Shown here: positions 10,613 to 21,028 of the stretch, one piece after another
Position numbering within the stretch: the first letter of the stretch is position 1
Layout: every line of letters begins with the position of its first letter
NCBI GenBank assembly: GCA_903928655.1
Contig: CAIYSA010000304.1
Span: 1 to 36,144 of the forward strand
DNA from: an uncultured Bacteroidota bacterium
GTDB taxonomy: Bacteria; Bacteroidota; Bacteroidia; B-17B0; Aurantibacillaceae
Length of the DNA: 36,144 bases
Direction: 5' to 3'
Notes under the pieces: generated by a model
Told to the model about the DNA's origin: nothing
What the model saw: only the letters and a program-made list of their open reading frames with translations
Databases searched by the model: none
Made by a program: the position numbers and the translations under genes

Positions 10613-11431
10613 CTAACGTTTAGCAATAAACCAATTATTCAATAAAATTTCTCTATTGTAAACCATGGGTTCATTTGTTTTATAATCGATTAGAGAACAA
10701 TTTGCTTCTTGTAGTATCGCTTGTCCAGCGGCAGTATCCCACTCCATGGTTGGTCCAAAACGCGGATATTCATCGGCAACACCTTCGGCAACTAAACACA
10801 TTTTAATGCTACTTCCAGTATTTACAATTTCAACAATTTTATGATGCCATTTTAAATTTTCGATATGTGTGTATGTTTCGCTACTCATATGTGAGCGGCT
10901 CGCTACTACAACATAATTTGTTCGATCTTTTTTTATTGGAAGTTTTTGTGCTTTCGTTAAAATAAATGCTAAAGATGATGATTCGATTAAATCTTTTATT
11001 AAACTAAAATCATTTCCACTAATTTTAAATGCCCCATTATTTTTACTGGAGAAATATAAATCGTTAGAGACAGGAGAAAAAATTACACCAAGAGTCGGTA
11101 TTCCATTTTCTACAAGTGCGATGTTTACAGTAAATTCACCATTACGTTTAACAAATTCTTTTGTGCCATCTAAGGGATCAACAATCCATAATTTTTCCCA
11201 ATGTTTTCTAACACTGTAATCTTCATGTTTTCCCTCTTCACTCAAAACTTCGACATTAAAGGGTTTTAAGAATTCGATAATTTTATCACTTGCATTTTTG
11301 TCTGCTAATGTAACAGGAGATTTATCATTTTTTATCTCCACGTCAAAATTAGTTTCATACACTTTTAGTATTTCGTTGCCAGCCAATACTGAGGCAATAA
11401 TTGCTTGATGAAGAAGATCAGAATAAATCAT
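10613..11431 (-). CDS. cysQ: 3'(2'),5'-bisphosphate nucleotidase CysQ
   Basis: CysQ hydrolyses 3'-phosphoadenosine 5'-phosphate to AMP and phosphate, clearing the by-product of sulfate activation and sulfotransfer. The 272-residue protein belongs to the Li-sensitive inositol-monophosphatase superfamily. The metal-binding residues seen are Glu65/Glu66 (LSEEGK), Asp85 and Asp88 within WIVDPLDGTKEF (82-93) and Asp232 in the C-terminal MEWDTAAGQAIL. Length and motif spacing match CysQ better than inositol monophosphatase. No sulfate-assimilation genes adjoin it. It lies just after feoB on the same strand, and a strong hairpin at the feoB stop separates the two. Confidence 0.92.
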   Translation of the reverse strand: MIYSDLLHQAIIASVLAGNEILKVYETNFDVEIKNDKSPVTLADKNASDKIIEFLKPFNVEVLSEEGKHEDYSVRKHWEKLWIVDPLDGTKEFVKRNGEFTVNIALVENGIPTLGVIFSPVSNDLYFSSKNNGAFKISGNDFSLIKDLIESSSLAFILTKAQKLPIKKDRTNYVVVASRSHMSSETYTHIENLKWHHKIVEIVNTGSSIKMCLVAEGVADEYPRFGPTMEWDTAAGQAILQEANCSLIDYKTNEPMVYNREILLNNWFIAKR

Positions 11432-19141: not shown

Positions 19142-20326
19142 TTATTTTTTATTAGGAATTTGTTTTTGCTTAGCCATTTCTTCTAATTTCGCTTGAAATC
19201 CAGATTTCTTTTCAGGCTTTTTCATATTAGCTAATAGTTGGTCCCTTATTTTTCCATCATCAATAAATTTTTTCATTGCAAATGTTTGAAGGAATGTAAT
19301 AACATTCGCTAAAAAGTAATACCAACTTAAACCAGCTGCATAACTATTCATTACTGCTAAAAATATAACTGGCATTAAATACATCATGTATTTCATCCCA
19401 GGCATCTGTGTTTGTTGTGGTTGTAGCATACTGCTATTCATCCACGTGTAAATTATTGTTGAAACAAACATTAATAATGCAAATAAACTTACGTGATCTC
19501 CATAACCCCAAACTTCAAATCCGAAATTATAAATTGAATCGTAAGTCGATAAATCATCTGTCCACAAAAAAGCTTTTTGACGCATTTCGATTGATGCAGG
19601 GAAGAATGCGAATAATGCAATTAAGATTGGAAATTGCAACAACATTGGTAAACAACCCGAAAGAGGATTTGCTCCAGCTCTTCGGTAAAGCGCCATGGTT
19701 TCCTGTTGTTTTTTCATAGGATCGGCATTGTCTTTAAACTTATCATTTATTTCATCAATTTCAGGTTTTAAAACCCTCATTTTTGAACTGCTCATATATG
19801 TTTTATAAGCTATTGGAAATAAAATAGTTTTTAGAATCAGAGTCAATAATAAAATCATGATTCCAGTATTAATGCTTGGCATACTGTTTAATAATGGAAT
19901 TACCATCCATTTATTAATATAGCTAAATACACTAAAGCCTGTTGGTATCATTTTGTCCAAATCCAAATTATAGTTTTTTAATGTATAATAATGTGTTGGT
20001 CCAAAATAAAATGCCATCCCAAATTTTTCATTAGCTGTATGCTTATATGGAATAGTTAATTGCGCTTCAATTCGTTTTACAATTTCTTGTGACGCAGGAT
20101 TTTCATTTGTTTTTACAAAACTTTCCTCTTTACTGAATTCGTTATCAGCAATTAAAGTTGAATTAAAGAAATGTTGCTTAAAACTAATCCATTTAATGTT
20201 TTGTTCATTTAATAAAAACTCCTCATTCTTTCTTGCATTTACATAATCAACACCTTCAATAGCTTGGTTATAATATACTGTTGCTGTTTCACGTTCTTTT
20301 TTAATGTCTTTTTCTTGAGAAGGCAT
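19142..20326 (-). CDS. yidC: C-terminal part of YidC after the TAG (insertase core)
   Basis: If translation restarted at the first ATG after the TAG it would give 394 residues (MPSQEKDIKK...). Residues 1-120 finish the periplasmic domain (KWISFKQHFFNSTLIAD, GMAFYFGPTHYYTLKNYNLDLD). Residues about 150-350 form the conserved insertase core. It includes SSKMRVLKPEIDEIN, YRRAGANPLSGCLPMLLQFP and MNSYAAGLSWYYFLAN. The C-terminus is Lys-rich (KKPEKKSGFQ...QIPNKK), as expected for a ribosome-facing tail. The piece lacks the first membrane helix, so made alone its periplasmic part would have no signal to cross the membrane. Restart is therefore unlikely to yield normal protein. No Shine-Dalgarno sequence is visible. 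Confidence 0.85.
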   Translation of the reverse strand: MPSQEKDIKKERETATVYYNQAIEGVDYVNARKNEEFLLNEQNIKWISFKQHFFNSTLIADNEFSKEESFVKTNENPASQEIVKRIEAQLTIPYKHTANEKFGMAFYFGPTHYYTLKNYNLDLDKMIPTGFSVFSYINKWMVIPLLNSMPSINTGIMILLLTLILKTILFPIAYKTYMSSSKMRVLKPEIDEINDKFKDNADPMKKQQETMALYRRAGANPLSGCLPMLLQFPILIALFAFFPASIEMRQKAFLWTDDLSTYDSIYNFGFEVWGYGDHVSLFALLMFVSTIIYTWMNSSMLQPQQTQMPGMKYMMYLMPVIFLAVMNSYAAGLSWYYFLANVITFLQTFAMKKFIDDGKIRDQLLANMKKPEKKSGFQAKLEEMAKQKQIPNKK

Positions 20327-20335
20327 ACTTTGTGC

Positions 20336-21028
20336 CTAATGTATTTTTACACCATGCGCTTTATTTGAAATAATATTTTGCATCCCTACAAAATTCACAT
20401 CATAATCAAGCATATAATCATTCCCTTTTAAAGTATAGATATATTCAATATAAGTTCCTGGAGTTGCTGTTTCAAGCTTTAATACTAATGTTTTAGAATC
20501 AGCGCCGCTAACTATAATAGATTTATCAGAAGTTTTAAAATAGAAACTATCAGTACTGAATTTCATATTTGAGTACGCGTCGAATTTAATTTGCTGAAAG
20601 GTTGAATCCTTATCAAATAAAATTAATGGCGATTTTTTACCATAACGGTTATATTTTTTCAATTCTACTTTTTCTACAACTGCACCTTTTGTAGAAACAT
20701 AAACTTTTATGTTTTCATTTTCAATCGTTACAATTTCTTTTGTTCCATTTGCTGAAACTGAAAAATCCTTATATTTATTTGATGCAATTGCAAACTTTGC
20801 AGAATCAGATAAATTTGAAGTTACAACTTTTACCGAATCCAATAATTTTTTAGAGGCAACTTCCGCCAATAGCTTTTCTGCATCCATCGCTGTTTTCTCA
20901 ACGAATTCAATGGAATCTTTAATGTCTTTATTCCGTTTAAGTTGTTCTTTATTTGGCCCAGCTAGAGCCAACCAAGTAATTAATATAACTGCAATTAGGC
21001 CTAAACCTATGAGTGATTTTTTATCCAT
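20336..21028 (-). CDS. yidC: N-terminal part of YidC before the TAG
   Basis: These 230 codons begin MDKKSLIGLGLIAVILITWLA, the first membrane helix of YidC. A charged helical linker (about 25-65) and the first two thirds of the periplasmic beta-supersandwich follow, including VSTKGAVVEKVELKKYNRYG and TPGTYIEYIYTLKGNDYML. They end at KAHGVKIH and then TAG. A promoter element (21052-21059) lies close upstream. Translation ending here would release a membrane-anchored, incomplete periplasmic domain with no insertase activity. Confidence 0.88.
   Translation of the reverse strand: MDKKSLIGLGLIAVILITWLALAGPNKEQLKRNKDIKDSIEFVEKTAMDAEKLLAEVASKKLLDSVKVVTSNLSDSAKFAIASNKYKDFSVSANGTKEIVTIENENIKVYVSTKGAVVEKVELKKYNRYGKKSPLILFDKDSTFQQIKFDAYSNMKFSTDSFYFKTSDKSIIVSGADSKTLVLKLETATPGTYIEYIYTLKGNDYMLDYDVNFVGMQNIISNKAHGVKIH

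Follow-up and report, generated by a model that had tools for sequence, protein, structure and literature searches.

A lone in-frame TAG in yidC of an uncultured Bacteroidota genome: a probable base error or short-lived point mutation

The yidC gene is normally essential. In an uncultured bacterium of the Bacteroidota, it is interrupted by a single in-frame TAG, for which a wrong base or a short-lived point mutation is the most likely cause, as opposed to a new reading of the genetic code. The gene lies in a stretch of 36,144 nucleotides (contig CAIYSA010000304.1, hereafter the window), where TAG at codon 231 is the sole break in the frame (Table 1). The initial annotation had described two YidC pieces in one frame, separated by TAG and three sense codons. 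This arrangement was confirmed on the minus strand, where TAG GCA CAA AGT is followed by ATG. The joined pieces also proved to have the full length of a YidC, as had been proposed, since the product aligns over residues 1-628 with the intact genes of relatives, with nothing missing. It matches YidC_periplas (residues 100-376, spanning the break) and 60KD_IMP (residues 389-587), both above the curated cut-offs and in one frame, interrupted by the TAG. In length, domain order and sequence it agrees with the intact same-genus genes of the Gram-negative type of the YidC/Oxa1/Alb3 insertases (TM1 and P1; PF02096 and PF14849), with the difference that one TAG replaces a conserved Trp codon within the periplasmic domain.

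Table 1. Coordinates of the yidC features in the window and of two further genes of the same draft genome (G000) that carry a lone stop codon.
Feature	Coordinates	Strand	Remarks
yidC	19142..21028	-	628 codons if TAG is read across; PF14849 and PF02096 on the joined protein; full-length alignment to relatives
In-frame TAG, codon 231	20336..20338	-	TGG in 108/110 sequences
yidC, first piece	20336..21028	-	230 codons and TAG; TM1 region plus the N-terminal half of the periplasmic domain
yidC, second piece	19142..20326	-	394 codons, counted from the first ATG; C-terminal half of the periplasmic domain plus the insertase core
ATG, possible restart site	20324..20326	-	Nine bases past TAG; also in the intact genes of G009 and G007
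icd with lone TAA	L207:5479-6708 (G000:C123)	-	Stop at C123:6457-6459
411-aa conserved protein with lone TAA	L309:6225-7454 (G000:C25)	-	Stop at C25:26684-26686

Codon 231 was compared in 110 sequences, from the genus up to the phylum, which included the draft genome studied here (G000), its closest relative (G009, 88% identity) and its second-closest relative (G007, 84% identity). Of these, 108 have TGG (Trp); TTG (Leu) occurs in G007 only and TAG in G000 only. The expectation that Trp belongs at this position is thereby borne out, and a single G-to-A change at the conserved codon fits the conversion of TGG into TAG. The conserved Trp is located eight residues ahead of a Glu and nine ahead of a Lys. 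The comparison with the closest strains, which the initial annotation had suggested, gave a divided answer: G009 has an intact gene with TGG, whereas the G007 gene (L031, G007:C152:589-2472) carries Leu instead of Trp. On the tree ((G000,G009),G007), this codon has changed twice among only three genomes, which may be due to chance, to a weaker requirement for Trp in the clade or to an error in both drafts. In G007, a second yidC fragment covering residues 485-628 (G007:C17:3474-3908) is 90% identical to the window copy, compared with 84% for the full copy of that bin, which suggests that the bin is mixed.

Judged from its substitution pattern, yidC has not been drifting. Relative to G009, dN/dS is 0.08 ahead of the TAG and 0.02 past it, although synonymous sites are near saturation and these ratios are rough. 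TAG aside, every column that is invariant in the rest of the genus is unchanged in the G000 gene, and purifying selection is strong both before and after the stop. Signs of a pseudogene, namely relaxed constraint in the comparison with G009 or any further lesion, were not seen in yidC. Low dN/dS on both sides of the TAG implies a very young stop, one that is bypassed or an artefact.

The draft was scanned for other stops with same-frame coding on both sides, which were judged by eye against ordinary gene junctions. In icd, encoding the NADP isocitrate dehydrogenase (contig C123), a lone TAA occupies codon 84, which in 23 relatives is AAA (19), AAG (3) or ACG (1), that is, Lys with one Thr. In addition, the comparison with G009 genes revealed a conserved protein of 411 aa (contig C25) with a lone TAA where G009 has a Tyr codon; no Pfam match was obtained for its first 256 residues. 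In the matched comparisons, one internal stop was found in 3 of 116 genes in G000 and in 0 of 113 in G009, a contrast that is only suggestive because two of the three cases had already been identified, leaving an unbiased yield of about 1 in 114. No convincing frameshift was observed in G000 genes in the comparison with G009 genes. Many further apparent internal stops in this comparison were dropped as antisense shadow frames. By this comparison yidC is not special in the G000 draft. Neither the stop codon nor the replaced residue is the same in all three genes; hence no single recoding mechanism covers all of them, whereas substitution errors under thin coverage, or private mutations, would. 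The icd gene of another draft, G018 (L265, G018:C198:19420-20649), is interrupted by a single TGA in place of a Gly codon, indicating that flaws of this kind are not confined to G000.

From the consensus sequence, the TAG is rather probably an isolated point error in a fragmented draft, which is itself probably a metagenome assembly. The draft consists of 529 contigs and has gaps at essential genes, rpsL being missing. Thin coverage in such an assembly would scatter substitution errors over unrelated conserved genes, and each would appear, as in yidC, as a single substitution against the family codon in an otherwise flawless gene. The reads would then not support the TAG, and the living population would most likely carry an intact yidC. 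The pattern resembles isolated nonsense errors of draft assemblies in that single-substitution stops of different kinds are scattered over conserved genes with no relation to one another, all within one fragmented draft, and differs in being known from the consensus alone. Several observations argue against a consensus error. The G000 yidC shows no surplus of odd missense changes, so that the error rate cannot be very high; G007, as the second-closest relative, also departs from Trp at codon 231; and the excess over G009 is statistically weak, two of its three cases having been known before the comparison was made. Among the options listed in the initial annotation, a base error (or, alternatively, a transient mutation) is favoured by the TAA codons in icd and in the 411-aa protein, and the need for a special mechanism is not supported.

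The main competitor, possible although clearly less probable than a consensus error, is that the sampled strain truly carries a nonsense mutation of very recent origin, either transient and deleterious or tolerated because background misreading of UAG provides enough full-length YidC. The low dN/dS on both sides of the TAG fits a very young stop, and bacterial genes under constraint are on record as carrying short-lived in-frame stop codons (Belinky et al. 2021, PMC7918605). As in those cases, the yidC stop is one nonsense substitution, is surrounded by sequence with dN/dS far below 1 and is private to one genome. Moreover, the Leu at codon 231 of G007 suggests that residues other than Trp may be acceptable here within the clade. 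The present case differs from the recorded ones in that it comes from a single unverified draft and concerns a normally essential gene. Against such a mutation, yidC is normally essential, and a functional second YidC elsewhere in the genome, which the initial annotation had considered, was not found in the 529 contigs searched. A search for a near-identical yidC on public plasmids returned no match. In addition, several conserved genes are hit together, which is more easily brought about by errors than by mutations tolerated under selection.

It is improbable that the TAG is both real and fixed, with enough YidC made either through tolerated misreading of UAG, at a site where Trp is no longer required in the clade (Leu in G007), or in two pieces through restart at the nearby ATG. 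Neither suppression nor a split YidC has positive support. Production of YidC as two pieces, in which ribosomes terminate at the TAG and begin again at the ATG nine bases further, and in which both pieces or the second alone function, is considered slightly less probable still. The restart codon is in the same frame and close past the TAG, and the second piece contains the whole insertase core. By analogy with E. coli, where TM1 and most of P1 are largely dispensable and a signal sequence can replace TM1 (PMC5766551), such a piece might suffice. Against this, the second piece would start inside the periplasmic domain without an export signal, and the break falls within one folded domain. The ATG is also found in the intact relatives, so it did not arise for restart and is no adaptation; furthermore, the split was seen in no other genome examined.

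The least probable reading, and a very doubtful one, is a dedicated decoding of UAG by a suppressor tRNA, loss of RF1, pyrrolysine or programmed read-through. TAG is a normal stop in this organism, and its use speaks against a genome-wide reassignment of UAG, which the initial annotation had called unlikely. TAG terminates 67 of 558 long ORFs (12.0%) in 867 kb of G000 and 52 of 379 (13.7%) in 530 kb of G009. It is not over-represented among the same-frame junctions of G000 with coding on both sides (3 of 28), and within the window it also ends pepP, the CDF gene and the gene at 10613-11431. The other broken genes of G000 carry TAA. A suppressor tRNA or read-through of UAG G, both raised in the initial annotation, found no backing. 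No tRNA with a CUA anticodon was present among the 27 tRNA genes recovered genome-wide by a covariance-model search and ARAGORN, a set that is incomplete and in which a suppressor could be missed. Scanning for CUA tRNAs by pattern produced 71 matches, compared with 33 in a reversed control, and was discarded as unspecific in AT-rich DNA; the tRNA result does not draw on it. PylS was not found, the only match being weak (19 bits against a cut-off of 178) and similar to matches in most control genomes. No stable RNA fold was detected downstream of the TAG (z = +0.44 against shuffles), and a read-through context kept in relatives was not found, as these carry a sense codon.

A point in favour of dedicated decoding is that prfA, encoding RF1, was not found in the G000 draft, in which the model search returned prfB and a weak peptidyl-hydrolase-like match only. 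The gene is present in both G009 and G007, and its immediate downstream neighbour in G009 is rpsL, the gene for an essential ribosomal protein. Among 20 relatives searched for rpsL, 18 gave a full-length match, one a fragment (G007) and one none (G011). Because this neighbour in the G009 order is missing from G000 as well, the absence of prfA is probably an assembly gap. Loss of RF1 as a sign of recoding was set aside, given the normal use of TAG at gene ends and the absence of rpsL. The pyrF neighbourhood is uninformative, as prfA adjoins pyrF in G002 and G003, whereas the two genes are apart in G007 and G009. In G007, prfA is flanked by a gene for a 797-aa protein, of which the G000 draft contains no full-length homologue. 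It should be added that prfA was likewise not found in the same-genus drafts G001, G011 and G014; for these drafts a gap is a less evident explanation than for G000, since the completeness of G014 is rated at 99% and rpsL is present in G001.

This case mainly illustrates that neither lone nonsense codons in draft assemblies nor an apparent loss of RF1 should be counted as recoding unless reads and a check of the neighbouring genes back it. Should the TAG in yidC nevertheless prove genuine and fixed, the cell would rely on read-through or a split protein for a membrane insertase that is normally essential, a surprising situation.
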